Of a stretch of 64,000 nt of DNA, positions 2,586-50,328 are shown one piece after another. Location: the NCBI RefSeq assembly GCF_947495965.1, contig NZ_CANMBB010000001.1, positions 434,001-498,000 of the forward strand, read 5' to 3'. The DNA comes from an uncultured Maribacter sp. GTDB lineage: Bacteria > Bacteroidota > Bacteroidia > Flavobacteriales > Flavobacteriaceae. The translations under genes and the position numbers were made by a program. The notes under the pieces are model-generated. The model worked only from the letters and a program-made list of their open reading frames with translations. It made no database searches and was not told where the DNA came from. Position 1 is the stretch's first letter, and each line of letters starts with the position of its first letter.

Positions 2586-4907
2586 ATGTTTATGCCTTGT
2601 AGAAAAACAATACGTTTTAATTTCCTAAATGTAATTTTAGGCCTTCTTTTATTCGGGTCTATTTTTACAACAAATGGGCAGAACAATCTTGCTACTACAG
2701 GTACTGCAACATCTAACAACACTATAGATAAAACAAATGAAAAATTTGTAAACGATGGTGATTTAGAAACTGGCTGGGTAAGTGATTCTCAAAGTATTGA
2801 AAAATGGGTAAGTGTTGAACTTCCCGGAAATACCGAAGTCACTAAAATTGATATTCAGATAGATTACAACCCAAACGTTCCTCCAAAATCTTATGCCTTA
2901 CAAACCTATATGAATGGGCGTTGGCGTGAATTTGAAAAAAAAGATTTCAAAAATAATGAGTCAATAAGTGTTACGCTAAAAAAGCCAATGCTTACAGACC
3001 AAATACGTTTTTCCATACATTCTACAGACCAAGTAGTTGTTACAGAATTTGAAATATATGGTATCGCCTATAAAGCCGATTTAACGCAATTAAAGGAAAT
3101 TTTAATAAACCAAAGCGGATATAATTTAGGGCAGCCAAAAAGATTTACAGTTCCAAAAGTTGCTAATAATGTGGCTTTCTTTATTAAAAACCTTACTACG
3201 CAAAAAGTAGTTTTTAAGGGGACAGTTAATAATAACATTGGTGATTTTACAAACTTTAATCCTGAAACTAAAGATGAATTTATAATTACCATTAATGACT
3301 TTGAATCGTACCCTTTTAGAATTGGTCCATATTGGTTAGAGCGTGTATCTTACCAAAATGCCATTGATTTTATGACTGGTGCAAGACATTATGTTGGTAC
3401 TACTAAAAAAATCAGCAAACTATCTTGGGCTTGGAGAGATGGCGATTTTTTTAATTGGGCATTGCAAGGTTTAATTGCACAATATTTATCAAACCCAGAG
3501 GCATATAAAAGTTTAGAAAAGAGAATTAAATATGTAGACAATTCTTCTTACCCAAAGGAATACAAAGGATTTTGGGGAGCTTTAAAACCATATAAAAAAG
3601 ATGCTCCAGACATTGTAAAACTAATCCACTGGGATGTAGATGTTAAGATATCTCAAGCATTAGAGCACGAACATCAAAAAGCAGAATTAGCACATTTCTT
3701 GTATGCTTATCCGTATTTAAAAGAATGGCTACCTCAACAGAATTTTGATGTAGTTTACAATTATCTTATTAATGGTTGGGAAAAAGAAAAGGTAAGAGAA
3801 ACCTCAACAACCAAGTATGACAAAAGTGAAAATCATAATCTTTTGGCTTTAAAAACCAAAATGGGAACCAACAAAGGTGAGCTACCTCCTGCCCACTCTA
3901 TTATTCCTAACCTAATGATGTATGAAGTTGTTAAAACTAAAGAACCTAAAAAAGCGCAAAAGTACTTCGATGCAGCCTTTTCTCAGATGAAATGGATGAT
4001 TGCCAACTTAGATTGGAAAGACCCTATAACCACAAAAGGGCAACGCATGTCGGAACATATTACTATGCGTGCTTTTGCATATTTCTACCACCAATACCCA
4101 GACAAAGCTCCAAAAGGACTTGAAAATAAAATAACACAATGGGCAGAAGTAATGCTTAGTCGCTCTAACAACATGTGGGACTTTAGAAAATATACAAACG
4201 ATAAAGAATGGGCTCCTATTGGTTGGAACGAGACAGGTAATATTTTAGGATTCCCTGCTGCTGCTTTAGCTGCAAAAAGTGTTATTAAAGATTCCATACT
4301 AAAAGAGAAATTAAATATACTTGCTTGGTCACATATAGATAACGCTTTTGGAAGAAATCCTACTGGAAGGCATTTTTCTTTTGATGGTCCTAAAGAAATA
4401 GAAGGTGTAGATTTAGGTTGGTATAATGCTCATGAAGGAGGCATAGGTTTACTAGCTCCTGTACCATTTGTTTTCGATGGTTCTCCAAAAGCCGAGCACT
4501 ACCCCAATCATCCAGAATTGGGAAATATAGGCTGGACAGAAGGATGGGTACAATTTAACACCGCTTTTAATACTAGTCTTGCCTATTTAGCTAATGACAA
4601 TACGGAAATACAATTTATTAAAGAAGAAAATAATACAGTTAAATTACGATTACAAGCACCAATCAATTTTAAAGAAGATACAAGAATAAATATTCCTTTA
4701 AAATTAAAAACCTCTACCGGACAAGAGGTTATAGTAAACTGTACACCAGAAGGGCCTTTCTCTAAATATGTATCTGCAACAATTGTAGTAAAGAAAAATA
4801 AAATTATATACCAAAATCAAATTATAAAAATCAAAAAAGGAGACTTTTTAACGGCTAGTTACGGTTTGGGATATTTTAAAAAAGAAGCTAAATTTTTAGT
4901 ACACTAA
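2586..4907 (+). CDS. GH9-like (alpha/alpha)6 glycosidase with N-terminal F5/8C-like module
   Basis: A secreted 773-residue protein with a signal peptide of about 30 residues; a Met three codons in is an equally good start. Residues 33-160 look like an F5/8 type C (CBM32-like) sugar-binding domain, with FVNDGDLETGWVSD followed by WVSVELPG. Residues 170-250 look like the Ig-like domain that precedes GH9 cellulase barrels (LINQSGYNLGQPKRFTV). The rest is an alpha/alpha barrel. WRDGDFF (Asp285, Asp287) sits where GH9 has its DAGD catalytic base motif. NAFGRNPTGRHF corresponds to the GH9 GxNP..RSF loop, and WTEGWVQFNTAF (Glu652) to the NEVAIDYNAAF acid. Overall similarity to true cellulases is low and cellulose is an unlikely substrate here. 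The activity is therefore unknown; an exo-acting or unusual galactan glycosidase is the best guess. Confidence 0.72.
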   Translation: MFMPCRKTIRFNFLNVILGLLLFGSIFTTNGQNNLATTGTATSNNTIDKTNEKFVNDGDLETGWVSDSQSIEKWVSVELPGNTEVTKIDIQIDYNPNVPPKSYALQTYMNGRWREFEKKDFKNNESISVTLKKPMLTDQIRFSIHSTDQVVVTEFEIYGIAYKADLTQLKEILINQSGYNLGQPKRFTVPKVANNVAFFIKNLTTQKVVFKGTVNNNIGDFTNFNPETKDEFIITINDFESYPFRIGPYWLERVSYQNAIDFMTGARHYVGTTKKISKLSWAWRDGDFFNWALQGLIAQYLSNPEAYKSLEKRIKYVDNSSYPKEYKGFWGALKPYKKDAPDIVKLIHWDVDVKISQALEHEHQKAELAHFLYAYPYLKEWLPQQNFDVVYNYLINGWEKEKVRETSTTKYDKSENHNLLALKTKMGTNKGELPPAHSIIPNLMMYEVVKTKEPKKAQKYFDAAFSQMKWMIANLDWKDPITTKGQRMSEHITMRAFAYFYHQYPDKAPKGLENKITQWAEVMLSRSNNMWDFRKYTNDKEWAPIGWNETGNILGFPAAALAAKSVIKDSILKEKLNILAWSHIDNAFGRNPTGRHFSFDGPKEIEGVDLGWYNAHEGGIGLLAPVPFVFDGSPKAEHYPNHPELGNIGWTEGWVQFNTAFNTSLAYLANDNTEIQFIKEENNTVKLRLQAPINFKEDTRINIPLKLKTSTGQEVIVNCTPEGPFSKYVSATIVVKKNKIIYQNQIIKIKKGDFLTASYGLGYFKKEAKFLVH

Positions 4908-4909
4908 TT

Positions 4910-7900
4910 ATGAATATAGAAAATTACATGAAGCAGTTTTACATCAAAAAAACATGTTTTTTAAACTTAATTTTTGTACTTCTAATTGTAGTTAGTTGTA
5001 CTTCTCAGAAATCTAAAGAAAACCAAAATAAAAGTATTATTTCTTTAAGTGGAACTTGGAAATATAATACCATTTATGGTATGGGTTCTAACCCTTTAAA
5101 TATCCAAATACAGCAATCTGACATTATTATTGATAATAGCAATAAAGAAAGTCTTGAAATAAAAGGAAAATGGAAAATAAAAAAAATTGGAGGAAGAGGT
5201 TCTGTTTTTCATGGAACTGATTATTTAACACATAATTTTAAGGAAAATGAATCTACTACTAATTATGTTCGTTTTAAACCAAACATTAGTAAAACAGGAT
5301 ATTATGAGGCTTTAATCATGTATCCTTTTGCATCGCATTTAACCACTCAAATAAACATAAATAATGCTGAAGGAAGAATGCCAAAATACGTAAGCCAAAG
5401 AACAAACTGCGGGCAATGGATAAGTTTAGGCATATATAAGTTTAATGCAGAAGATGATAATTATGTTGAAGTTACAGCAATTACAGATGGAGAAGTAGCT
5501 GCAGATGCTGTACTATTTAGACCAATTCCTGAAGATGAGTTTTTAGAAGCTAAAAAACAACCAGAACAGGTGTTCTTACCAGAATATGACGATTCAGACT
5601 GGAATAATTTAAAAGTACCAGGGCACTGGGGAATGCTAAACTCTTATTCTAACTACAATGGATTAGGATGGTATAGAAAAGAATTTAAGTTACCAGAAAA
5701 TTGGACTGTAAATGCTAATGAAAAAATTAGATTAAAATTTGATGGTGTTTATCACGTGGCCAAAGTTTATTTAAATGGCATTTTTATTGGTAAACATAGA
5801 GGTGGTTTTACGCCTTTTGAATTTGAAGTTGAACAATATTTAAATTCTAAAGAATTGAACGTACTAGCTTTAGAAGTAGATAATAGTAATGCCGTTGGTG
5901 CAACATGGAACTGGGGAGGAATTATTAGAGATGTGTATTTAGTTAAGAACTCTCTGGCAAGAATTAACAACCAATACATACATGCAACACCAAATTTAGA
6001 AAAAGGAACTGCAACTTTAAAGTTGAAAGTGAAAGTTGAAAATAACTCAGATAAGGCCAAAAGTATTTCCATAAAATCTATCATTTCAAAAGATAAAAAA
6101 ATTACTGAATTAGTTAAAACTGTTGAAGTACCAGCTAATAAAATTTCAGAGGTCGTTTTACAAGAAAAATTAGAGGCTAAAGATGTTACATTATGGCATT
6201 TTGATACACCTGAATTATACCATTTAGAAACTACCATTTCTGAAAACAAAACAGTAATAGATACTAAGAATAATGATTTTGGAATTAGAAAAGTTGAAGT
6301 AACAGCTTCAAAACTGTTATTAAATGGAGAACCTGTTCGCTTAGGAGGTTTTAATAGAGTAAGTGAACATCGTTATTACGGGTCTTCAGAACCTTTAGAG
6401 GTATTAGAAAAAGATGTTGATTTAATGAAAGAAGCAGGTGCTAATTTTATGAGAATTATGCACGGTACTCAAAATGAAAAACTCATTGAATTATGCGATA
6501 AAAAAGGAATACTGCTCTTTGAGGAAGCAAATATTAGAGACTTAACCAACCCTGAATTTACAGCTCCAGAATATCCATTAGCAAAACATTGGCTAAAAGG
6601 TATGGTAGAACGCGATTGGAATCATCCAAGTATAATTGGTTGGAGTGTTGGGAACGAGCTTTCTAATCATTATGAATATGCAAAAACAACTATGAATTTT
6701 GTTCGCGAATTAGACCCTAATAGATTAGTAACTTGTGTAAGTAATAGTGGCCAAAAAAGTTTCTCAAACCGAGAAACAGACCCTAATACTGAAGTAGACA
6801 TTATAATGCATAATATGTACAGATGGCAAGGAGAACCCCAAGAAATCATTGACAAATTAAGAAGTGAATGGCCTGAGAAACCAATCTTTATTTCTGAATA
6901 TGGATTTGACCCTTACCCAACAACATCTTTAGATGGTGACCAACAAATTTTTACAGATTGGAATGAACACTGGCGTGGAAAAAATGAATTTGTTATAGGT
7001 GGCTCATTATGGACTTTTAATGATTATAGAAGTGGCTATGCAGCAACTTCCCAAGAAGAAAATAGGGTTTGGGGATTAATAAATGTATGGCGACAGAAAA
7101 GAAGAATGTTTAGTAGAGTAGCTAAAGAATTTAGTCCTATTAAAGATATTGAAGTTAAAGACCTAAATCTTTCTAAAAACAAAGCCAAAGTAATTATTCC
7201 TATAAGAGGACTAGATGATTATCCAAGTTATGGTTTAAACAACTACAAATTAGAATGGGACTTTAGAGATATAGAAGGAAAAGTAGTTGAAGAAAAGTCT
7301 CTAGAATTACCTTCTATAAAACCAGAAGATAAAACTTGGAAAGGTGAAATTACTTGGAATACTTTACCAAAAAAACTACTGGATTTAAGAATTAGATTAA
7401 TTAGTGCAACTGGTTATGTTAGGTATGAAAAAGTAGTTCCATTTACCACTCCAAAATCTCCTAAAATTTCGGGTGCTAATTTAGGAGATAAATCTGCAAG
7501 AGTCTTCTTTGAAAAAGTACCAGGTGCAACAGAATATTTGGTTCGTTACAAAAATGACAAAGGAGAAATTATTGAGTCATTTAAAACTATTACAAATGCT
7601 ATTGAAGTTGAGAGTTTAACCAACAACAAAGAATACACTTTTAGTGTAGTTGCTATGAACAAAAAGGGAGAAAGTACCCCAGCTAATAGCATAAAAATTA
7701 CACCAAATGGCAAATTACTACCTCCAAAAATTTGGGACACCTTTATAAAAGACAACAAAGTTATAATTGGTTACACAAGTGAGTTTGGAGATACTTTTTA
7801 CAACATAAAATACGGAACGTCAAAAGAAAACTTAGATAAAGTCTTTAAAACTAACGTAAGAGGAATGATGACGATTGATATTGAACATGAAAACACTATG

Positions 7901-7975
7901 TATTTCAAAATACAAAGAGAAAATAATAATGAAAAAAGTAACTGGTCCTTAGTACTAAAAGCCGAAAAGTTATAA
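4910..7975 (+). CDS. GH2 beta-galactosidase-like enzyme with golvesin-like domain inserted in its N-terminal domain
   Basis: A 1021-residue lipoprotein (lipobox Cys about residue 30; Met7 at 4928 is an alternative start giving a more typical signal). The GH2 sugar-binding domain starts at SLSGTWKYNTIYG (residues 45-57), is interrupted, and resumes at YDDSDWNNLKVPGHW (226-240). The intervening residues, about 71-207, resemble the golvesin C-terminal/xanthan-lyase-like module: GYYEALIMYPF, RTNCGQWISLGIYKFNA, VAADAVLFRP. The Ig-like domain follows, then the TIM barrel with WSVGNE (Glu583 acid/base) and FISEYG (Glu663 nucleophile). The C-terminus carries FN3-like domains (about 850-1021). Expected to release beta-linked galactose or related units. 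It starts 2 bp after the upstream stop, so is in the same operon. Confidence 0.88.
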   Translation: MNIENYMKQFYIKKTCFLNLIFVLLIVVSCTSQKSKENQNKSIISLSGTWKYNTIYGMGSNPLNIQIQQSDIIIDNSNKESLEIKGKWKIKKIGGRGSVFHGTDYLTHNFKENESTTNYVRFKPNISKTGYYEALIMYPFASHLTTQININNAEGRMPKYVSQRTNCGQWISLGIYKFNAEDDNYVEVTAITDGEVAADAVLFRPIPEDEFLEAKKQPEQVFLPEYDDSDWNNLKVPGHWGMLNSYSNYNGLGWYRKEFKLPENWTVNANEKIRLKFDGVYHVAKVYLNGIFIGKHRGGFTPFEFEVEQYLNSKELNVLALEVDNSNAVGATWNWGGIIRDVYLVKNSLARINNQYIHATPNLEKGTATLKLKVKVENNSDKAKSISIKSIISKDKKITELVKTVEVPANKISEVVLQEKLEAKDVTLWHFDTPELYHLETTISENKTVIDTKNNDFGIRKVEVTASKLLLNGEPVRLGGFNRVSEHRYYGSSEPLEVLEKDVDLMKEAGANFMRIMHGTQNEKLIELCDKKGILLFEEANIRDLTNPEFTAPEYPLAKHWLKGMVERDWNHPSIIGWSVGNELSNHYEYAKTTMNFVRELDPNRLVTCVSNSGQKSFSNRETDPNTEVDIIMHNMYRWQGEPQEIIDKLRSEWPEKPIFISEYGFDPYPTTSLDGDQQIFTDWNEHWRGKNEFVIGGSLWTFNDYRSGYAATSQEENRVWGLINVWRQKRRMFSRVAKEFSPIKDIEVKDLNLSKNKAKVIIPIRGLDDYPSYGLNNYKLEWDFRDIEGKVVEEKSLELPSIKPEDKTWKGEITWNTLPKKLLDLRIRLISATGYVRYEKVVPFTTPKSPKISGANLGDKSARVFFEKVPGATEYLVRYKNDKGEIIESFKTITNAIEVESLTNNKEYTFSVVAMNKKGESTPANSIKITPNGKLLPPKIWDTFIKDNKVIIGYTSEFGDTFYNIKYGTSKENLDKVFKTNVRGMMTIDIEHENTMYFKIQRENNNEKSNWSLVLKAEKL

Positions 7976-9850: not shown

Positions 9851-11185
9851 ATGAAAAAGTTAAATTTAATAACTGTAATAATAACTATGATAACTTTTGG
9901 CTTTAGCTTAGAAAGTTGTGGATCATCGTCAGAAGATATACAAGAACCTAAAAAAGAAGAACCAAAAGAAGAACCAAAAGAAGAACTAATCACTTGTACT
10001 GAAGAAACTTATAACACTGTATTGCCTAGTCCAACAGAACAATTTGATATAACCAAATGGGAATTAACTTGGAAAGATGAATTTGATTATGATGATTCTG
10101 AATTAGAGACTAATTGGACATCTCAAAATGGTGCAAGTGGAACTCTTTGTAGTCGTTGGAGAGAAAATGCAGTTGTAAAAGATGGTGTTTTAGAATTACA
10201 AGCAAGAAAAGAAACGAGAGCTGGTCAAGATTGGACTTGTGGTAATATTTGGACTAAAGAAACTTTCGGATTTGGATATTATGAAGCTAAATACAAATAT
10301 GCAGGTGCAAGTGGAACAAATAATTCGTTTTGGTTATTTCCAAGAGATAAAAGCATTAATGACAGTGAATTAATTTGCGAATTAGATATTAATGAAGGTC
10401 ATTTTCCTAATGAAGTGAATACAAATCGTCACCATTGGCAAAACGGAAGCTCAGAGAATAGTCAACAACCTTATACAGAAGGGTTATCTCCAGGGTATGC
10501 GCATAGCTTTGAAAATGCTATAACTACTAAACGCATTCGTTTTTCATCTAATAATGCAAACCATTTTCATATTAGAGAGTTTCGAATCTTCGAAGAGAAT
10601 TCTAGTTGTAAATTTCCTAGTGATATACAAGATAACAATGCTGATATTTCCGTTGATGGCTTAAATAACCTATCCAAAAATAGTGGAATTACAATTACAT
10701 CTAGCGGTACTTTAAATGACACTTATGATGTTTATGATATTGCAGATGGTAGTATTACCACTAGTTGGGTTTCACAAAAAACAGGAGAAAAATGGTTGGA
10801 ATTTGAATGGCCTTCTGAAAAAGATATAGGGCATATTCAATTTATCAATGGTTGGAAAAGTGGTAATAATTGGAATGCCTTAATCTCAGATTATAAAATT
10901 GAAGCAAGGGTAAATGGAGAATGGATTGAAATAGCAAGTTATGATGCAAAAGTAGACTACAACTATGCCGAACAGTATCACTTATATGGAATGAATTGGA
11001 ATGCCGATAGTATTAAGTTTTATTTTGATAATAAACTTATAAAAACAATTCCCAATACTTTATGTGATAAAGAACTTAATATATTTTTAAGCTTGGCCAT
11101 ATTGGAACATGCTGGAGAGGTAACCGATGCTATTAATGGTACAAGTATGAAAATAGATTATGTAAAGTATTATGAACATAAATAA
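9851..11185 (+). CDS. GH16 endo-galactanase-like lipoprotein with a discoidin-like domain inserted in the catalytic domain
   Basis: A lipoprotein (Cys23) with a Lys/Glu/Pro linker at 34-47, as expected of a surface enzyme. The GH16 jelly roll begins near WELTWKDEFDYDD. The active-site motif is ELDINE: Glu177 nucleophile, Asp179, Glu182 acid/base, matching ExDxxE. After HHW (194-196) the fold is broken by about 165 residues. It resumes at YHLYGMNWNADSIKFYFDNK (from 376) and ends with MKIDYVKYYE. The insert has F5/8C features, but its C-terminal strands (ITTKRIRFSS, HFHIREFRIF; about 224-247) come before its N-terminal half (YDIADGSITTSW, DYKIEARVNGEW). The probable role is the endo-acting opening cut on a sulfated galactan. 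Subfamily (kappa-/beta-carrageenase, furcellaranase, agarase or other) cannot be settled by eye. Confidence 0.85.
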   Translation: MKKLNLITVIITMITFGFSLESCGSSSEDIQEPKKEEPKEEPKEELITCTEETYNTVLPSPTEQFDITKWELTWKDEFDYDDSELETNWTSQNGASGTLCSRWRENAVVKDGVLELQARKETRAGQDWTCGNIWTKETFGFGYYEAKYKYAGASGTNNSFWLFPRDKSINDSELICELDINEGHFPNEVNTNRHHWQNGSSENSQQPYTEGLSPGYAHSFENAITTKRIRFSSNNANHFHIREFRIFEENSSCKFPSDIQDNNADISVDGLNNLSKNSGITITSSGTLNDTYDVYDIADGSITTSWVSQKTGEKWLEFEWPSEKDIGHIQFINGWKSGNNWNALISDYKIEARVNGEWIEIASYDAKVDYNYAEQYHLYGMNWNADSIKFYFDNKLIKTIPNTLCDKELNIFLSLAILEHAGEVTDAINGTSMKIDYVKYYEHK

Positions 11186-23152: not shown

Positions 23153-25594
23153 ATGAATAGAGAGGTAAAATATCAAATTTGGATATTATCAATCATGATG
23201 GGATTTGTATTACCCCTCCAAGCTCAAATTGTTCTACTTGGAGATAATACTCCATATGCAAATGTTAACGATGGTAATTTTGAAGCCGTACACGGATATT
23301 GGCGTCAATCTAAACAATCCCCATTTTGGACAACCAAAAATGTAAAAGGATTAGGAGAATATGGAATGGGAATACATTATGGTACCTTGTTTAGTAATAA
23401 TGATTTAGGCATTGCTGAGTCTAAGTTATTAAATACAAATCCTAAATATCAGAATCCCAAAAAAGGGGATATTTTACAATGGAGTTTTGGTGCAGATTTA
23501 GAATACATTAGCCAAGGAAGTATTTCATTAAGTCTTGTTTTTGGGAAACATGAACGTAAAGTTGCAGATAAAGTAAAACTAATTGGCTCTGATAAAGTAG
23601 TTGAACATTTTAATGGACAGTATGTAATTAATGAAGAAGATGCTAATGCAGGTTTGCCATTTGTTAGAGTTACTTTTTATTCTGAAGATGAAATTAAAGT
23701 ATTTCTGCATTATGTAAATATTAGTATTATTGATGAAAAAAATAGTGGCCCAAAATTAAATGCCTTAGTAAAAGAAAATGGGATTAAACTAAGTTGGAAA
23801 GATAAACTCGCGGATAAAAAAAGTCTCTTTAATGTTTACCGACAGTATGCTAAAAAAGGAGCTTACAAAAAGATTGGAGAATCCTATAGCAGTTCTTTTC
23901 TTGACACTACCTTGATCAATGGTGTAGCCTACACTTACGTAGTTACACGTTTTAATCAAAAAGAATCTGGAGCATCAAACAAAATAGTAATTAGCAAAAA
24001 AGATACTATTGCCCCTAAACCACCTACCGATTTAACAGCCGAAATTTACGATTCTGAAATACAAATTTCTTGGAAAAAAAGTGTTTCTAAAGATGTAAAA
24101 AACTACACTGTTTATAGAGGAGATGAAAATGGAAATAATCTTCAAAAAATTGCACATAATATCACTAAAAATTTCTTTTTAGATTTTACTCCAGCTAAAG
24201 ACATTAAAAATACGTATATAGTTTTAGCAGAAGATTTCAGTGGTAACAAAAGCATAGCATCAAAACCATTAAAAGCTAAAGTAAAAATGGTTTCTGGAGC
24301 GTCGTTTAGCGATGTAATTTTGCCTATGCCTATACACCACAAACTAACTTCAAAAGCTTGGGGAGCCAATGGAGTTTTACCACGAGATATTAGTAATGGT
24401 ATAGAAGATTCCGAATGGAGTTATTGGGGAGGACGTCCTGTAAAAGATAAAGACGGCAAATATCATATGAATGTTAGCCGTTGGCCTGCTAATGCAACAA
24501 AAGGCCATTGGGAGTGGCCACGTTCTACAGTTGCCTATACTGTTTCAGATAAACCAGAAGGTCCTTATAGGGTAAAAAAAGATATAGCTTACAACTACAA
24601 TAATGGCTTAGGGCATAACCCAGATATCATCCTATTAAATGACGGGACTTACTTAATGTATTCTTTAATAAATTGGGAAGCTACTTTGTTTTCTGCCACG
24701 TCCATGAATGGTCCTTGGAAGCGATTGGGAATTATGAAAGTTAATAAAAATACTCCTTTAGAAAAACCGCAACTCCAATATCGTTTTGAAAGAAACCTAT
24801 CTGGAGTGCATTTAGAAGACGGTCGTTTTTTATTTGTTACTAAAGGTGGTGCTATGATGCTTAGTGAAGGAACCAACCCATTAGGACCTTATACTATTAA
24901 AACAGGCCCATTACAAGGAAATACAATAATCCCAGAAAAATATAGAAATTCTAATTTTGAAGACCCAGTTCTCTGGAAAGATGAAGTACAATACCATATG
25001 ATGATTAATGCTTTTATTGATTATCGCGCCATCTATTTGCGTTCTCCAGATGGCATACATTGGAAGTTTAATCCCGGAACCGCTTATACCCCTAATAATA
25101 CATTTTATGAAGATGGCACCCAAACACACTGGTACAAATTAGAAAGACCACATGTTTTAACAGACGAATATGGGCGCGCCACACATCTTTCTTTAGCTGT
25201 TATAGATGTACCTAAAGCAGATGATTTAGCAAAGGACAAACACAGCTCTAAAAACCTTATTCTTCCATTAATAGTGCCTAAAAGAATTAAACTTTTAAAT
25301 AAGAATAAAATTTCTAAAACAACCAAAAAAATAAAAATCCTAATCCAATCCGAAGTTGGTTTTAATGCTCAAGAAGATATAGATCTAAGTTCCTTGCGTT
25401 ATGGAGCCTGCGAAGAAGTAGATTATGGTCGTGGCGCAAAACTTTTAAAGACTAACAAGAAAGGAAAAAATCTAATCCTAATTTTTAATGGCGAAGGAAA
25501 CGGAATTACTGAAAGAAATTTTGCTGGTAAACTTTTAGGAAGAACAAAAGAGGGTAAATTGCTAATTGCCTTTTCAAAATTAAGTGCAGATTAA
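23153..25594 (+). CDS. Multidomain five-bladed-propeller hydrolase with two FN3 domains (member 2)
   Basis: 813 residues with a Sec signal ending ...PLQAQ. Residues 25-190 form a beta-rich module resembling a carbohydrate-binding or adhesion domain (DGNFEAVHGYWRQ). About 195-285 and 290-378 are FN3 domains (GIKLSWKD, YTYVVTRFN, PPTDLTAEIYDSEIQISWKK). About 390-690 is a five-bladed propeller with DGKYHMNVSRWP, GHWEWPRSTVAY, SDKPEGPY, FEDPVLWKDEVQYHM and LERPHV. The last 110 residues are a further small beta domain. The propeller is homologous to the whole of the proteins at 13807 and 25618. The function is inferred only as a glycoside hydrolase of the GH43/GH117 superfamily. It follows GH2 by 41 bp. 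Confidence 0.65.
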   Translation: MNREVKYQIWILSIMMGFVLPLQAQIVLLGDNTPYANVNDGNFEAVHGYWRQSKQSPFWTTKNVKGLGEYGMGIHYGTLFSNNDLGIAESKLLNTNPKYQNPKKGDILQWSFGADLEYISQGSISLSLVFGKHERKVADKVKLIGSDKVVEHFNGQYVINEEDANAGLPFVRVTFYSEDEIKVFLHYVNISIIDEKNSGPKLNALVKENGIKLSWKDKLADKKSLFNVYRQYAKKGAYKKIGESYSSSFLDTTLINGVAYTYVVTRFNQKESGASNKIVISKKDTIAPKPPTDLTAEIYDSEIQISWKKSVSKDVKNYTVYRGDENGNNLQKIAHNITKNFFLDFTPAKDIKNTYIVLAEDFSGNKSIASKPLKAKVKMVSGASFSDVILPMPIHHKLTSKAWGANGVLPRDISNGIEDSEWSYWGGRPVKDKDGKYHMNVSRWPANATKGHWEWPRSTVAYTVSDKPEGPYRVKKDIAYNYNNGLGHNPDIILLNDGTYLMYSLINWEATLFSATSMNGPWKRLGIMKVNKNTPLEKPQLQYRFERNLSGVHLEDGRFLFVTKGGAMMLSEGTNPLGPYTIKTGPLQGNTIIPEKYRNSNFEDPVLWKDEVQYHMMINAFIDYRAIYLRSPDGIHWKFNPGTAYTPNNTFYEDGTQTHWYKLERPHVLTDEYGRATHLSLAVIDVPKADDLAKDKHSSKNLILPLIVPKRIKLLNKNKISKTTKKIKILIQSEVGFNAQEDIDLSSLRYGACEEVDYGRGAKLLKTNKKGKNLILIFNGEGNGITERNFAGKLLGRTKEGKLLIAFSKLSAD

Positions 25595-37675: not shown

Positions 37676-40276
37676 ATGTTAAAATTAACATATACTAGTC
37701 TCTTAATTTTGTTAGTTATTTTTCAGTTACAGTGTCAAAATAAAGAAACCTCAACAAGTTCTTTTTTTAAAAAAATAAAAACAGAAAAAACACTTTCCGA
37801 CCCTTCGGTGGAATGGAAAAATTTTGGTCCAGGAATGTCGGGCTATAATGAAGAGTTCTGGTGCCACCCAACAGATGAAAATGTGATGTTCATGGGGCCA
37901 GATATGCACGTTTCTTACGGAACATGGGATAACGGAAAATCATGGCATTCTATTAAAGACTATGATGGCGACGGCAAAGATTTGGAGCGTGTTCTAGACA
38001 TTGTTTTTTCTACTCAAAACCCAGATTTTGGTTTAGCATTAGAACGTAGAGGAAAAATTTTTAAAACTACGGACAGAGGTCGAAGTTGGAACTTAATTTA
38101 TACTATTCCTGGAGCAAATAAATCTAGTTATAATGCACACACCAAAATGGCTATTCATCCAACTAATGATGATATATGGTTTGTAGGAGCTGGAGATTTT
38201 TGGAATGTAAAAAACAACCATCGTTCTAAAGAATTTATTCATGGTAAAAAAAACGATAGAGCAAGTTACGGTTATGTTTTAAAAACTGTTAATCATGGTA
38301 AAACATGGAAAAAAGTAGCTCATAATATTTCCAAAGATTTAGATGTTGCCAGAATTATTGTTAACCCTGCAAAACCAAATAACATATACATTGCTACAAG
38401 TCATGGTTTTTTTGTGAGTAAGGATACTGGAGACACGTGGAATCCTAGCAAAAAAGGATTGCCTAATAATTTACCTAGAGATTTAACATCTTACTACAAC
38501 CCTAAAACTAAAGAGTTTATTTTATACTTGGTAGAACAAACTGTATATGAACCAAACGGAAAAAGTATAACAACAAAAGGTGGGGTTTATAAAAGCATAA
38601 ATGGTGGAGAAAGTTGGGAAAATATAACAGGAAATCTTGGTGTAAATTACAATAAAATTACTGACAAATCTCATAGAAGTAATTACCACAAAATGCTCAG
38701 TTATTGGTTTGGAAAAAACTCAAAAAGTACTTACCCAAAATTTCCAGAAAACACTTATTCCATATTTAATAGAATTGTAGTAAACCCATTAAATAAAGAT
38801 GAGATTTATTTAGTTGCTAATCAGCGTCATGATAAAAGTTTTGGGCCAGGAGATGCCTGGAAAACAGAAGATGGTGGAAAAAGTTGGAAAATATGTGCTC
38901 GCGCAGGAAACTATTGGAACCAAAATAAAGATAAAGCCTATTGGGTAAGTAAAGGTTTTGAAACTGGTGCTAACGTAGAATTTTCTCATGTAGGCATAGC
39001 TAATGCAGAACAAAATGAAACAAGATTTGGAAGTAGAAGTTTAGCAATAAATTCTAAAGGAGAAGTTTTTATTGGTGTACAACAACAAACACAACGATCA
39101 AACGATGGTGGTAAAACTTGGAAACAAGTAGATGATTATGAAACGGAACCAGGTAGTAATACTTGGGTAGGTCGTGGAGATAGTAATTTACCTGGACGTT
39201 TTATGTTGTTAGAAACAGGTATTAAAGATCGTTACTTACTTTGTAGTGGAGAACATGGTTTATGGGAGACTGCCCCATTAGGAAAGTATCCAGATAAAAA
39301 TGCGGTAGCAGTAAAACAAATAGAAGGTCAGGTACACGACCACAGCGGAAATCATGGAGCACATTCAATTTCTACCGTTGCCGTTCATCCAAAAGATCCA
39401 AATACTATTTACATTTTAATGTGGCGTCAAGAACATAGAGGCAAGTTTAGAAGAAGTACTGATGGCGGAAAAACTTGGGAAAATATAGCCACAATTTTTG
39501 AAGCAGATAATGGACCTTGGGAAGATTTAGGATACCAATATTCTTTAACTATTGATCCTGTAAACCCTGAAAATATTTATTTCTGTGCTATTAGAAGACC
39601 AATTCAAGAAGTTGGAGGAGGAAGTAAAGGGAAACTAACCAAAGGTGATTATGGGGTGTATCATTCATCTGATGGAGGTTATACTTGGAACTTAAAAAAT
39701 AATGGCCTGCCAAAGAATGCAAGTGTACGAAGAATTGCAATGCACCCAGATAACCCAAATACATTATACGCTTGTTTAAATAAAAGAGAAAAAAAAGACC
39801 CTTCGGGGTTATACATTTCAACAGATAAAACAAAATCATGGAAAAAGATGAGAATTCCTTCAGAAATTGAAGGTGTTAATAATATTTTCATTGATAGAAA
39901 CACTAAAGACATGTATTTATCTGCGGGTTATAGAGTAGGCTCTATTGAAACAGGTGGAGTTTGGAAAAGCACAAACAATGGTAAATCTTGGAAAAAATTC
40001 TTTAACGCGCCTTACGTATGGCAAACAGAAGTCTCTCCAATAAATCCAAAATTAATTATGGTAAATGTTCCTGCTCAAGTTAGTACTATGTTTAATCAAT
40101 TTAAAAACCCTGGAATTTATTTAACAAAAGACGGAGGAAAAAGTTGGGCCAAGATTAATAAAGGAATAGGACAACCAGATAAAATGGTGGATATAAAATT
40201 TGACCCTTATAATAAAAATATTATTTGGTGCGCCGGATGGGGAAGCGGTTGGTTTAAAGCAACTTTAAATAAATAA
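37676..40276 (+). CDS. Asp-box (BNR) double beta-propeller lipoprotein, GH74/VPS10-like
   Basis: An 866-residue lipoprotein (lipobox Cys20). At least twelve Asp-box motifs of the form S/T-x-D-x-G-K-x-W are visible along its length (TWDNGKSW, TTDRGRSW, SKDTGDTW, SINGGESW, TEDGGKSW, SNDGGKTW, STDGGKTW, SSDGGYTW, STNNGKSW, TKDGGKSW and two variants). That indicates two seven-bladed propellers side by side, as in GH74 xyloglucanases and VPS10-type proteins. IHPTNDD, VNPAKPNNIYIAT and HPKDPNTIYILM between the boxes are the usual companion strands. It may be an enzyme of a GH74-like or lyase type, or a glycan-binding protein. No catalytic pair could be assigned. It opens a new transcription unit. 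Confidence 0.75.
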   Translation: MLKLTYTSLLILLVIFQLQCQNKETSTSSFFKKIKTEKTLSDPSVEWKNFGPGMSGYNEEFWCHPTDENVMFMGPDMHVSYGTWDNGKSWHSIKDYDGDGKDLERVLDIVFSTQNPDFGLALERRGKIFKTTDRGRSWNLIYTIPGANKSSYNAHTKMAIHPTNDDIWFVGAGDFWNVKNNHRSKEFIHGKKNDRASYGYVLKTVNHGKTWKKVAHNISKDLDVARIIVNPAKPNNIYIATSHGFFVSKDTGDTWNPSKKGLPNNLPRDLTSYYNPKTKEFILYLVEQTVYEPNGKSITTKGGVYKSINGGESWENITGNLGVNYNKITDKSHRSNYHKMLSYWFGKNSKSTYPKFPENTYSIFNRIVVNPLNKDEIYLVANQRHDKSFGPGDAWKTEDGGKSWKICARAGNYWNQNKDKAYWVSKGFETGANVEFSHVGIANAEQNETRFGSRSLAINSKGEVFIGVQQQTQRSNDGGKTWKQVDDYETEPGSNTWVGRGDSNLPGRFMLLETGIKDRYLLCSGEHGLWETAPLGKYPDKNAVAVKQIEGQVHDHSGNHGAHSISTVAVHPKDPNTIYILMWRQEHRGKFRRSTDGGKTWENIATIFEADNGPWEDLGYQYSLTIDPVNPENIYFCAIRRPIQEVGGGSKGKLTKGDYGVYHSSDGGYTWNLKNNGLPKNASVRRIAMHPDNPNTLYACLNKREKKDPSGLYISTDKTKSWKKMRIPSEIEGVNNIFIDRNTKDMYLSAGYRVGSIETGGVWKSTNNGKSWKKFFNAPYVWQTEVSPINPKLIMVNVPAQVSTMFNQFKNPGIYLTKDGGKSWAKINKGIGQPDKMVDIKFDPYNKNIIWCAGWGSGWFKATLNK

Positions 40277-45662: not shown

Positions 45663-48600
45663 ATGCTTATGAAATTAGTAAAGTTTATTAAAAAGAAATG
45701 CCAACCGCGCACTTTTCTACTTGCGTTGTTTTGGATTGCAGGCTCTTCACTGGGTCTTGCACAAGATGCCACTTTAAGTGGTGTAGTAAAAGACAACACA
45801 GGGCAACCATTACCAGGTGCTAATGTTCTTGTAAAAGGTACTACCAACGGAACACAAACAGATTTTGATGGTAATTTTACCCTTAACGCTCCTAGTAATG
45901 GAACAATATCAGTAAGTTACATAGGTTTTGTAACCCAAGAAATTGCAATTAACAACCAATCTAGTATTACAGTAACTCTTGCAGAAGATGCTAGCCAATT
46001 AGATGAGGTTGTTGTTATTGGTTATGGTTCTCAAAAGAAATCAGATTTAACCGGTGCAGTGGCTACAGTAGGTTCTAAGGATATTGAAAAATATACTTAT
46101 AATGATGCTTCGCAAGCATTACAAGGTAGAATGGCCGGTGTAAATGTACAAGCACAAGGTGGTGCTCCAGGAGCTGGTTCTGTAATTACTATTAGGGGTA
46201 CTGGAACATTTAGTAACAATGGCCCGTTATATGTAATTGATGGGATGATTACTGGTAGCATGAATACTGTTAACCCTGGTGACATTGCTAGTGTTTCTGT
46301 ATTAAAAGATGCTTCGGCAACTGCAATATATGGTTCTAGAGCAGCTAATGGTGTAGTAATAATAACTACCAAAAAAGGAAAAAAAGGAAAAGTTAGTATT
46401 GATTTAGATACTAGTTACGGATACCAAAAAGCTATTAACCAAATAGACTGGGCAGATGCTACACAATACGCTGCAATAGTTAATAGAGCAAATGATGCAG
46501 ATGGTGTTCCAAGATACCCAGCAAATGATACAGAATTTGACCCAAACTATAGCAGTAATTTATACGATGATTCATTTAGAACTGCATCTATAAGTAATAC
46601 AAACCTTAGAGTTTCTGGAGGTGGTGAAAATAGTGTTTATAGTCTTTCTTTAAATCAATTTGACCAAGATGGTGTTATTAAGTATTCAGATTTTAAAAGA
46701 ACTACCGTAAGAGCTAATTTTGGATTAGATAAAGGAAAGTTTAATTTACAAAGTACAATTGGGTTAACAAGAACAGTAGATAACCCAAACCCATACTTTA
46801 ATAAAGAAAGAAACTTATTACCAACTATTAGACTAAGAAATGATGCTGGAGAATGGAGTGCAGATGATAGAGCAGACAGAGGTATTACAACTGCCTATGG
46901 TGCTTTTTATGGCCCTGGTACAATAGCAAATGAATTAGCTATAGCAGCTTTAGAGGATAGAACTAATACGTTAAATACTGTTATTGGTAATGTATCTGGT
47001 TCTTATGAATTATTTGATGGATTAACATATAAGTTAAACTTAGGTATGGAATCCTCTTCAAGAAATAACTATACTTTTAGTCCAGATGAACAAGTAATTT
47101 ACAATGGCTCTAATAAAGCAACATCAGAATTAAGAGAAACAAATACAAACCGTTTAAATACTTTAGTAGAACACACTCTTAACTACAAGAAATCTTTTAA
47201 TAAACATAATGTAGATGTATTAGCTGGTTTTACAGATCAAAAAAATAATTCTAGATCTTTAGGTATTGTTGCTCTTAATGCAATTAATAATATTAGTGTA
47301 GCCGGTGCATTTAGTTCTGAAAATTTACAAAGTGCTCCTTCACAAGATATTACTTCTACTATTCAATCTTATTTTGGTAGATTAAATTATACATTTGATG
47401 ATAGGTATTTATTAACGGCAAGTTTACGTCGTGATGGTTCTTCTTTGTTTAAAGAAGATTTAAGATGGGGTACTTTCCCTTCTATGGCAATAGGTTGGAA
47501 TATTAGTAACGAACCATTTTTAGAAGATTTTGATGCTGTATCTAACATTAAACTAAGAGCAGGTTATGGAGAAATAGGATCTAATAATGTAAATCCTTAT
47601 GCTATAGATCCTTCTATAAACCTTTTTAGCACATATATTTTAGGGGACACACAAACCAGACAATCTGGTTATGCGGTAACAAGAGGTGTAAATAGGAATA
47701 TTTTTTGGGAGACTACTAAAACTACTAATATTGGTTTAGAATTTACTACTCTAAATAATAAGTTAAATGTAACTATGGATTATTTTATAAAAAAATCCGA
47801 AGACATTTTAGTAGACATTCAATTACCACTTTATTCTGGATTTGCAAATACAATCCCTTTTAATAGAGGAAATATAGAAAATAAAGGTTTTGAATTCTTA
47901 GCAACCTATGCGGATCAAATAGGAGATTTAAACTTTAACGTAACAGCTAACTTTTCTACCTTAGACAATGTAGTAACTTCTTTAGGAGGGCAAGCCCCTA
48001 TAGTTGGTGGTGGTTTTACTTCTAATGGTTTACGAGGTACAAGAACTGATATTGGACAGCCCATTGGTTCTTTTTATGGTTATGTAACAGACGGTATTTA
48101 CCAAACAGATGCAGAAGCTACCGCTGCTAATGACCAAGAAGGTAACCCTAGAGCTGGTGACCTGAAGTTTAAAGATTTTAACGGAGACGGCGTAGATCCT
48201 GATGATAGAAGATACCTTGGCTCATCGATTCCTAATTTTGAGTACGGATTTAACCTAACGGCAGACTATAAAGGTTTAGATTTAAGTTTATTTTTTAATG
48301 GTGTCGCGGGTAATAAAATTCTTAATTCTACTATATATAGAGGATATTTTGATTTTAATGGTAACTATTTAGCAGATGCTGCAAATGCATGGACACCAAC
48401 TAATACGAACACTAGTGTTCCTAGAAATACACAAGTTGACCCTGGGTTTAACCGTAGAATGTCTGACTTTTATTTAGAAAGTGGAGCATATTTTCGTTTA
48501 AGAAATGCACAAATAGGATATACACTTCCTGATAATGTATTAGAAAAAATAAGAATCCCTAAAGTAAGATTATACGTTTCTGCAACAAACTTATTTACTA

Positions 48601-48737
48601 TTAGCGATTATTCTGGTTACTATCCAGAAGTTGGTAGAAACAGTAGAGGTGGTACTAGCCAATTTAACAATGGAGTTGATGAAGGAAACTATCCTACTCC
48701 AAGAACGTATCAATTAGGTTTACAAGTTTCTTTTTAA
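45663..48737 (+). CDS. susC: SusC-like TonB-dependent outer-membrane transporter
   Basis: 1024 residues; Met3 (45669) is an equally possible start. Signal peptide to about residue 34 (SSLGLAQ), carboxypeptidase-regulatory-like domain 37-112 (LSGVVKDNTGQPLPGANVLV), TonB-box-like DEVVVIGYGSQKK, plug domain about 120-235 (ALQGRMAGVNVQ, VLKDASATAIYGSRAANGVV), then the beta-barrel ending in the C-terminal aromatic strand TYQLGLQVSF. It imports oligosaccharides produced at the surface, together with the SusD that starts 8 bp downstream. It is the only complete transporter in the window and so probably the main importer of the locus substrate. Confidence 0.97.
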   Translation: MLMKLVKFIKKKCQPRTFLLALFWIAGSSLGLAQDATLSGVVKDNTGQPLPGANVLVKGTTNGTQTDFDGNFTLNAPSNGTISVSYIGFVTQEIAINNQSSITVTLAEDASQLDEVVVIGYGSQKKSDLTGAVATVGSKDIEKYTYNDASQALQGRMAGVNVQAQGGAPGAGSVITIRGTGTFSNNGPLYVIDGMITGSMNTVNPGDIASVSVLKDASATAIYGSRAANGVVIITTKKGKKGKVSIDLDTSYGYQKAINQIDWADATQYAAIVNRANDADGVPRYPANDTEFDPNYSSNLYDDSFRTASISNTNLRVSGGGENSVYSLSLNQFDQDGVIKYSDFKRTTVRANFGLDKGKFNLQSTIGLTRTVDNPNPYFNKERNLLPTIRLRNDAGEWSADDRADRGITTAYGAFYGPGTIANELAIAALEDRTNTLNTVIGNVSGSYELFDGLTYKLNLGMESSSRNNYTFSPDEQVIYNGSNKATSELRETNTNRLNTLVEHTLNYKKSFNKHNVDVLAGFTDQKNNSRSLGIVALNAINNISVAGAFSSENLQSAPSQDITSTIQSYFGRLNYTFDDRYLLTASLRRDGSSLFKEDLRWGTFPSMAIGWNISNEPFLEDFDAVSNIKLRAGYGEIGSNNVNPYAIDPSINLFSTYILGDTQTRQSGYAVTRGVNRNIFWETTKTTNIGLEFTTLNNKLNVTMDYFIKKSEDILVDIQLPLYSGFANTIPFNRGNIENKGFEFLATYADQIGDLNFNVTANFSTLDNVVTSLGGQAPIVGGGFTSNGLRGTRTDIGQPIGSFYGYVTDGIYQTDAEATAANDQEGNPRAGDLKFKDFNGDGVDPDDRRYLGSSIPNFEYGFNLTADYKGLDLSLFFNGVAGNKILNSTIYRGYFDFNGNYLADAANAWTPTNTNTSVPRNTQVDPGFNRRMSDFYLESGAYFRLRNAQIGYTLPDNVLEKIRIPKVRLYVSATNLFTISDYSGYYPEVGRNSRGGTSQFNNGVDEGNYPTPRTYQLGLQVSF

Positions 48738-48744
48738 TAAAAAA

Positions 48745-50328
48745 ATGAGAAAAATGAAAAAAAATAAAATCACAATAAAGGGAATACTTGCAATGTTTGC
48801 ATTATTAGCCCTTAACCTAAATTGTTCCGATGATGCATTAAATCAGGACAATCCAAACATTCTTGTACCTACATCATTTTGGGGTACAGCAGAAGATGCA
48901 AATAAAGGTATTCTAGGAGCATACAGCCCTTTTATAGCCATAACTTATTATTCTAGATTTGAAATTTTCTTATCGGATTATAGAGATGATGTTGTGAATG
49001 GTTTTAATTCTTCTGACAGAACTGCTGCAGGAGCATTTAATGCTACCGCAGATCGTAATGCACCAAAATGGATGTGGGAAGCACAATTTAGAGGTGTTTC
49101 TAGAGCTAATGATGTTCTTTTTAACGTTCCAAATATAGAAATGGATGCAACTGAAAAAGAAAATATTCTTGGAGAAGCATATTTTATTAGAGCATTTAAC
49201 TATTTTAATCTTTTAAATAATTTTTTAAATGTACCTCTAATTACAGTTCCTTTTGATCAAATGGAGGCTCCAGATTTAATACCACAAGCACCTCCGGCAG
49301 ATGTTTGGACATTAATTGAAGAAGATTTAAAGAAAGCACAAACAATGCTTCCAGACTCGTGGTCAGCAAGCCAAACAGGTAGAGCAAGAGCTAAGGCTGC
49401 TACTGGTTTATTAGGTAAAGTTTACTTATACCAAGGTAAATACGGCCCTGCTAAAACGGAGTTCGCAAAAATTATGGACGGTAGCTTTGAGTTAATGGAT
49501 GATTATGCTGCTAACTTTTCTGAAGAATTTGAAAATAACAAAGAATCTCTTTTTGAAATTCAACTTATTTCTGATGGTCAACAAGGTTGGGGAGCAGATA
49601 ATGCAAATAGTGGTTCTGGTTCTGCTTTCCAAGCAGATTTAGCTCCTGTAGGTTATACAAACCAAAACACTATGAGAGTTAATCAGTGGGCATTAGATTT
49701 ATTTTTAGATGAGCAAACTATTAACGGAGAAATTGATCCTAGAACCTACACAACCTTTTTCTGGAATACAAATGAAACTACAGAGTACGAAGGAAAAACA
49801 TTAGCTTCTAGAACTTACCTTAACACATCGTATGCAGATGCCTTTGATGCTGCTGGTACAAACATATTTGGTAATAAATATGCCGATTGGGAATTTAATG
49901 GTAAAGAAGAGTCTAGAGATGGCGGATGGCATAGCTCTGGAAACAACTTAAGAATATTAAGATATGCAGATATTCTTTTAATGTTTGCTGAAGCTGACGT
50001 AATGGCTAATGGTGGCAACTCTACGCAAGAAGCAGTAGACGCTGTAAACGAAGTAAGAAGAAGAGTAGACATGCCAGAATTTACAACAGTTACAATGCAA
50101 GACATTGAAGATGAACGTGTAAAAGAATTAACTTTTGAAAGAACACGTTACTTTGATCTTTTAAGATGGGATAGAGTAAAATCTAGAATTGTTGATAACC
50201 CAGATTTAAAATCTGAAAGCGGCGGAACTAGTTCTTACAAACCAGGAAGAGAATATTTAGCTATTCCTCTTTCAGAATTAGATGGTAACAATAATGACGA
50301 AGGGTTTAAGCAAAATCCAGGTTACTAA
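48745..50328 (+). CDS. susD: SusD-like surface glycan-binding lipoprotein
   Basis: A 527-residue lipoprotein with Cys27 followed by SDD, acidic residues typical of surface-exported Bacteroidota lipoproteins. The alternative Met4 (48754) changes only the n-region. The SusD signature is visible: GEAYFIRAFNYFNLLNNF in the TPR-like helices, RARAKAATGLLGKVYLYQGKY, and ILRYADILLMFAEADVMANG and ELTFERTRYFDLLRWDR near the C-terminus. It caps the SusC barrel and selects oligosaccharides. It is followed by its own terminator, so SusC and SusD form a two-gene unit. Confidence 0.97.
   Translation: MRKMKKNKITIKGILAMFALLALNLNCSDDALNQDNPNILVPTSFWGTAEDANKGILGAYSPFIAITYYSRFEIFLSDYRDDVVNGFNSSDRTAAGAFNATADRNAPKWMWEAQFRGVSRANDVLFNVPNIEMDATEKENILGEAYFIRAFNYFNLLNNFLNVPLITVPFDQMEAPDLIPQAPPADVWTLIEEDLKKAQTMLPDSWSASQTGRARAKAATGLLGKVYLYQGKYGPAKTEFAKIMDGSFELMDDYAANFSEEFENNKESLFEIQLISDGQQGWGADNANSGSGSAFQADLAPVGYTNQNTMRVNQWALDLFLDEQTINGEIDPRTYTTFFWNTNETTEYEGKTLASRTYLNTSYADAFDAAGTNIFGNKYADWEFNGKEESRDGGWHSSGNNLRILRYADILLMFAEADVMANGGNSTQEAVDAVNEVRRRVDMPEFTTVTMQDIEDERVKELTFERTRYFDLLRWDRVKSRIVDNPDLKSESGGTSSYKPGREYLAIPLSELDGNNNDEGFKQNPGY

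Follow-up and report, generated by a model that had tools for sequence, protein, structure and literature searches.

A GH16 hydrolase from an uncultured Maribacter with a probable circularly permuted discoidin-like domain nested in its catalytic fold

In the window analysed here, a stretch of 64,000 nucleotides from a contig of an uncultured Maribacter sp., we identify a gene for a family 16 glycoside hydrolase (GH16), the catalytic fold of which is split by an insert of some 170 residues (aa ~203-372). On our best reading, this insert is a discoidin (F5/8C, CBM32-like) domain nested in the GH16 fold in circularly permuted order, such that the equivalent of the C-terminal discoidin strands precedes that of the N-terminal half. 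The arrangement is not unique to the window, as 80 further aligned proteins have the same layout. The features referred to below are as follows, with the basis of each in brackets.

9851..11185, forward strand: GH16 glycoside hydrolase gene, 444 aa (open reading frame; Pfam GH16, 2e-15)
9851..9919, forward strand: probable lipoprotein signal, ending in lipobox-like LESC at aa 20-23 (sequence, motif scan)
10028..10444, forward strand: GH16 catalytic fold, first part, aa 60-198 (Pfam and PDB matches, AlphaFold2 model)
10379..10396, forward strand: catalytic motif ELDINE, aa 177-182 (alignment of 81 proteins)
10457..10618, forward strand: first segment of the insert, aa 203-256, equivalent to the discoidin C-terminal strands (hhalign, controls)
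10619..10666, forward strand: linker, aa 257-272 (best cut points of the cut scans lie in or beside it)
10667..10963, forward strand: second segment of the insert, aa 273-371, equivalent to the discoidin N-terminal half (Pfam, hhalign, PDB chains)
10964..11182, forward strand: GH16 catalytic fold, closing part, aa 372-444 (PDB sequence matches at aa ~366-442; alignment)
2703..3068, forward strand: ordinary, unpermuted discoidin, aa 40-161 of the 773-aa product of ORF 2586-4907 (Pfam F5_F8_type_C, 47.2 bits, aa 40-147)
45663-48737: SusC-like receptor (Pfam)
48745-50328: SusD-like protein (Pfam)

A GH16 fold in two parts

In common with GH16 (PF00722), the 444-aa protein is a jelly-roll hydrolase bearing ExDxxE, the catalytic motif of the family, and it differs in that its fold is interrupted. 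Pfam recognizes GH16 in two stretches on either side of the insert, with 57.1 bits in all (cut-off 22), which bears out the earlier note's claim of an interrupted catalytic domain. The catalytic motif occurs as ELDINE, followed by HHW (aa 194-196) and, beyond the insert, by YHLYGMNW (aa 376-383); E177, D179 and E182 are invariant in all 81 aligned proteins. From HHW to YHLYG we count 179 residues, compared with 30 in a close relative without the insert (L034:6127-6912), so that the separation of about 180 residues given in that note, and its coordinates, were right. Sequence matches in the PDB are mostly to GH16 enzymes and fall within aa ~60-214 or ~362-444, with a few stretches starting near 311; those listed include GH16-type glucanases, agarases, porphyranases and carrageenases. 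With regard to GH16 subfamilies 13 (furcellaranase) and 17 (kappa-carrageenase), the protein, at 36 bits against a cut-off of 350, lies outside the NCBIfam K_carrageenase model. Within its own genome the ORF is the only full-length match to itself, accompanied by one weak, partial GH16 match of 28% identity. The LESC at the N-terminus is what we take to be a lipobox, according to a simple motif pattern rather than a trained predictor.

Relatives with and without the insert

When each species was represented by a single genome, scanning yielded 191 candidates and 164 relatives, from which 79 loci were kept; from these and some additional loci, 98 distinct ORFs matching the window protein at E<=1e-8 were collected. 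Ninety of these match across the insert (some partially) and eight lack it; the insert profile scores 237 bits in L056:85-1068, and at most 1.9 bits in the eight. Among 397 genomes of the family, at least 11 full-length genes spanning the insert occur in seven genomes, the window gene included. The alignment comprises the window protein and 80 of the 98 ORFs. Outside it are the eight insert-less ORFs, L034:6959-8293, the partial L072, L108 and L056:85, the long L068, L069, L088 and L105 (>600 aa), L058:7337 (501 aa) and L094. Every one of the 81 proteins carries 170-192 residues between the alignment columns that hold residues 197 and 374, a uniformity due in part to this selection. The 72 source loci of aligned proteins, many of them metagenome assemblies, are distributed over Bacteroidota (42), Verrucomicrobiota (11), Pseudomonadota (11), Planctomycetota (5) and Lentisphaerota (3).

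Two of the insert-less enzymes, L034:6127-6912 (261 aa) and L045:10369-11169 (266 aa), adjoin insert-bearing genes and match the window protein only at aa ~58-194 and 371-444; L055:3491-4582 likewise adjoins an insert-bearing gene. Further off are L096:6182-8299, L071:4390-6099 and L076:1-1758, and more distant GH16s are L050:15006-15863 and L078:2691-3428. A tree of the core places the L034/L045 pair and L055 inside the insert-bearing set, with the exact place of one supported at 0.40, and requires at least three changes of insert gain or loss. Such a placement would mean secondary loss, with the alternatives left unrejected by AU tests, whether these unite all insert-bearing proteins in a single clade (p 0.24) or place just the L034/L045 pair (p 0.44) or just L055 (p 0.42) outside the insert-bearing set.

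Several clusters contain two insert-bearing paralogs (L032, L033 and L035, also L039, L041, L044 and L046), and the window genome has one such gene. In L032, L033 and L035, one paralog has a lipoprotein-like signal and the other an ordinary-looking signal sequence, which suggests a surface and a periplasmic form. A further match, G002:C12:156739-157500, has 11 internal stops; two intact insert-bearing genes lie close to it, and it seems to be a degenerate copy. RsCgk of Rhodopirellula sallentina was considered as a characterised member; it is of 369 aa in the part of the source consulted, compared with 432 aa for the protein of the same strain at L062, and the two are therefore not equated. 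Two plasmid records annotate relatives solely as 'family 16 glycosylhydrolase', and the nested, rewired nature of the module may explain why annotation misses it.

Likeness of the insert to discoidins and sugar-binding modules

In the whole protein, the Pfam F5_F8_type_C profile matches aa 282-392 with 23.0 bits, below its cut-off of 28.2, and the end of this match overlaps the GH16 part; within the insert alone, positions 80-161 correspond to positions 2-82 of the profile. A search of PDB sequences with the insert profile in native order returned 18 distinct sequences up to E 1, led by 2jd9 (YeCBM32). All 81 aligned proteins share R230, S233, K314 and W358, so that the two halves follow each other in one order throughout the alignment, and Q330, F331, N333, G334 and W335 are conserved in 72-79 of the 81 rows.

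These observations bear on whether the insert, though of discoidin fold, could be a structural spacer or a dimerisation element without sugar binding, which we hold to be rather unlikely. Discoidin domains also bind proteins and lipids, and the insert-less relatives retain the GH16 motifs, both of which are in keeping with such a role. However, the consensus of reference discoidins is weak at the five residues from Q330 to W335 listed above and at K314, and several PDB matches of the insert are, by name, carbohydrate-binding modules or chains of carbohydrate-active enzymes, which argues against such a role.

Permuted order of the two halves

Exchange of the halves yields a modest gain in single-sequence comparisons. 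With HMMER, the insert in native order scores 25.9 bits, under the F5_F8_type_C cut-off, and in swapped order 29.7, over it; the numbers of members recognized by Pfam at E<=0.001 are 14 of 17 native and 15 of 17 swapped. With a local discoidin model the window protein improves from 33.5 to 37.9 bits, and its span from positions 7-95 to 7-143 of 148, and the family mean moves from 33.0 to 33.4-33.5 bits (81 rows). The gain exceeds 1 bit in 15 of 81 rows, as against 13 of 81 for trivial cuts near 203; indeed, the commonest best cut is 203 itself (15/81 rows), which leaves the halves unseparated, and 257 is best in five. We therefore turned to profile-profile alignment, in which the cut point was scanned and controls were included, and to a reverse test.

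The reference profile comprised 26 ordinary discoidins drawn from 30 loci in the genomes of relatives, after L138 (an insert-bearing family member), L121 and L135 (both truncated where their contigs end) and L140 were dropped; it includes the discoidin of the window (L133) and three close relatives thereof. The hhalign filter retained 69 of 81 rows of the insert alignment, which was rotated in steps of four residues. Both discoidin halves are found in the insert, and their order is inverted relative to an ordinary domain: in native order, aa 272-364 align to reference positions 10-99 (score 75.4), and aa 209-256 to positions 102-151 (48.5). Rotated with cuts at 253-273, a broad optimum, the insert gives one alignment of 133-137 columns with a score of 110.4-111.0, and E falls from 4.6e-12 to as low as 3.4e-18. 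Ordinary discoidins, compared 13 against 13, behave as a control should and align best uncut, dropping from 169.8 to a low of 84.1 when cut in mid-domain.

In the reverse test, an insert profile built from 78 rows (the shorter inserts L102, L111 and L115 being excluded) was compared with 34 ordinary discoidins. On swapping, the mean best score rises from 13.3 to 16.7 bits and the mean span from 63 to 82 positions, both peaking when the cut falls within the linker, at residue 264. Swapping improves the score for 27 of 34 discoidins, by at least 1 bit in 17; the count of wins is unspecific, because cuts at 208-240 fail to part the halves and also give slightly higher scores for 23-27 of 34. For the discoidin of the window, the score increases from 27.2 to 35.9 bits. 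This domain, some 7 kb upstream, contains the same two halves as the insert in the opposite order: profile positions 79-166 align to aa 41-124 of the product of ORF 2586-4907 (23.5 bits) and positions 8-48 to aa 121-161 (15.6 bits). Among the three PDB matches of the native-order profile for which alignments were inspected, 7rga is inverted likewise (profile 89-163 to chain 23-103 and 11-44 to 110-145; 15.5 + 8.3 bits), as are two pieces in 4a42, the second of them very weak (1.8 bits). E-values in the PDB search are about equal for native and swapped profiles, and with the latter 7rga and 2w1q each align as one longer stretch. The earlier note had proposed that the C-terminal discoidin strands come first and the N-terminal half second, and the inversion recurs in hhalign, in 7rga and in the discoidin of the window; its forecast that swapped halves would score much better holds for profile-profile alignment (75 to 111), and fails for single sequences. 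By sequence, the linker of ~16 residues is best read as joining what are the C- and N-termini of ordinary discoidins.

It might be objected that the insert is a new beta-sandwich, in which kinship with discoidins is confined to the second part and the likeness of the first is a coincidence between short strands. The small gain from adding the first part in single-sequence HMMER comparisons, and the lack of a discoidin among Foldseek matches of the insert at E<=0.001, would be in line with this. Against it, the first segment by itself reaches 44.8 where a match is expected (discoidin positions 103-149), compared with 8.4-14.0 for 14 equally long GH16 windows and a maximum of 13.9 over 40 column shuffles, and its resemblance to discoidins exceeds chance; the joint alignment reaches ~111 as opposed to 75; and the second pieces in 7rga and in the discoidin of the window are located as predicted. 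We accordingly regard a new fold as improbable, and retain the reading of a permuted discoidin.

Predicted structure

AlphaFold2 models the whole protein with confidence from the 81-row alignment (pLDDT 91.8, pTM 0.84; insert blocks 88-98). The model has the beta jelly-roll of GH16: the best 50 of its 129 Foldseek matches at E<=0.001 are, to judge by their titles, GH16-type enzymes (best E 3.9e-12), and GH16 structures are aligned to it with long gaps. These 50 are of 212-310 residues, except for the multidomain glucanase chains 7ww4 and 7wwc (479-480), in which the GH16 part is continuous and has no such gap. The isolated insert, modelled from 78 rows, is mostly beta and equally confident (pLDDT 92.2, pTM 0.88), and in prediction it confidently folds as an autonomous unit. 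The insert could otherwise represent the seam of former tandem discoidins, a C-terminal half and the N-terminal half of the next which do not together form one domain; the order of C-half, linker and N-half is that expected of a trimmed tandem array, which as an origin of the permutation is compatible with our preferred reading, but the prediction of one confident unit, and the invariance of R230, S233, K314 and W358 from both halves in 81 proteins, make a mere seam very improbable.

Foldseek, a sequential aligner used here with no positive control, returned no PDB match for the insert model at E<=0.001. We read this null as a consequence of the permutation, which is expected to defeat a sequential aligner, and absence is no proof. 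The best match of the insert is 6eon, the galactanase BT0290 (E 0.026, TMq 0.58), which is the sole match of probability 1.00 among those listed and may share the permuted topology. A GH35 precedent by way of 6eon was set aside, as neither the insert nor the discoidin profiles match the sequence of one GH35 from a relative (L148), though L148 may represent BT0290 poorly.

Gene cluster and candidate substrate

Among window ORFs up to 50400, Pfam identifies three GH2, five GH43-like, one GH127, one GH29, two GH28 and eight sulfatase genes, in addition to the SusC-like and SusD-like genes. The carrageenan-induced genes ZGAL_3629-3638 of Zobellia comprise one GH2, one GH29, two GH28, two sulfatases and a SusCD pair, and other Bacteroidetes loci are described in the same source, in the part consulted, as holding GH16 genes which are distant from cgkA and most likely form a new subfamily (PMC5698469). 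A carrageenan-like sulfated galactan is a fair guess, no more, as the substrate in the window organism. Relatives from lakes and ponds, to judge by titles, occur among the loci, which argues against one marine substrate for the whole family.

Three other proteins of the cluster deserve mention in their own right. The GH2 enzyme at 4910-7975 (forward strand) has a Golvesin_C match at aa 72-203, upstream of its GH2 sugar-binding match at aa 233-347; as the preceding SLSGTWKYN reads like the start of that GH2 domain, this stretch may be another nested module. The 813-aa ORF at 23153-25594 (forward strand) has no Pfam match at E<=1e-5, and an 866-aa protein with BNR/sortilin-type repeats is encoded at 37676-40276 (forward strand), within the utilization locus.

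Discussion

Both halves of the F5/8 type C (discoidin, CBM32) domain match the insert, whose halves are reversed, and which is nested where the ordinary domain is appended. A circularly permuted glucanase is reportedly the subject of an earlier study, by the title of which the glucanase itself was permuted, and not a nested binding module. In most multimodular enzymes the modules are arranged in series (PMC7848910). SusG, with CBM58 in GH13, and Xyn10C/Pm25, with CBM4 pairs in GH10, are likewise enzymes of Bacteroidota utilization loci with a carbohydrate-binding module inside the catalytic domain; they involve other catalytic and CBM families, and the part of the source consulted describes no permutation (PMC7848910). 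GH16_8 enzymes with CBM32 are described as linked, and the words 'insertion', 'inserted' and 'permut' are absent from the main text, the part of the source consulted (PMC6827312). RoCBM21 CP90 is a permuted carbohydrate-binding module with changed binding, but, unlike the insert, it is a starch-binding CBM21 permuted in the laboratory and not nested in GH16, according to the portion of the source at hand (PMC3511584). Nesting of a CBM in a hydrolase is thus already known, whereas a permuted discoidin inside GH16 was not found described in our limited searches of the open-access literature, which covered titles and the beginnings of abstracts, with most subscription papers outside their scope.

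Building on the split GH16 fold, the catalytic motif, the inverted halves and their conservation, and the confident autonomous fold in prediction, we consider it likely that the protein is a GH16 of a sulfated-galactan locus in which a complete, nested and circularly permuted discoidin/CBM32-like domain may help to bind the galactan. The gene product would be an endo-acting hydrolase that is secreted and probably anchored by a lipid, and that belongs to a utilization locus of the sulfated-galactan type, presumably cleaving with retention through E177 and E182, assisted by D179, as in GH16 chemistry generally. Its discoidin-like domain would be seated between two GH16 strands, NTNRHHW, which comes after the catalytic motif, and YHLYGMNW, and the opening of the domain would lie between the TTKRIRF strand (from aa ~215) and one that terminates near ASYD (aa ~365). 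Held at two points beside the active site, the module might bind the galactan chain and present it to the cleft, and the enzyme might then supply the SusC/SusD pair (45663-50328) with oligosaccharides formed on the cell surface. As the earlier note also proposed, the module may lie at the edge of the cleft and could govern substrate recognition.

The retention of this nested, rewired layout in five phyla suggests selection for its geometry. Three clusters, L034, L045 and L055, in which an insert-bearing and an insert-less enzyme stand side by side, constitute a natural experiment on the nested module and substrate choice. A more tentative, and on balance doubtful, proposal is that the permutation is itself functional: with its opening flanked by the aa 357-365 and aa 215-233 strands, and with fixation at two points, the barrel might turn its ligand face to the GH16 cleft, so that both domains form one composite binding groove. 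If this is true, these proteins would make up a widespread and hitherto unrecognised class of GH16 galactan hydrolases, in which a rewired CBM supplies extra subsites.
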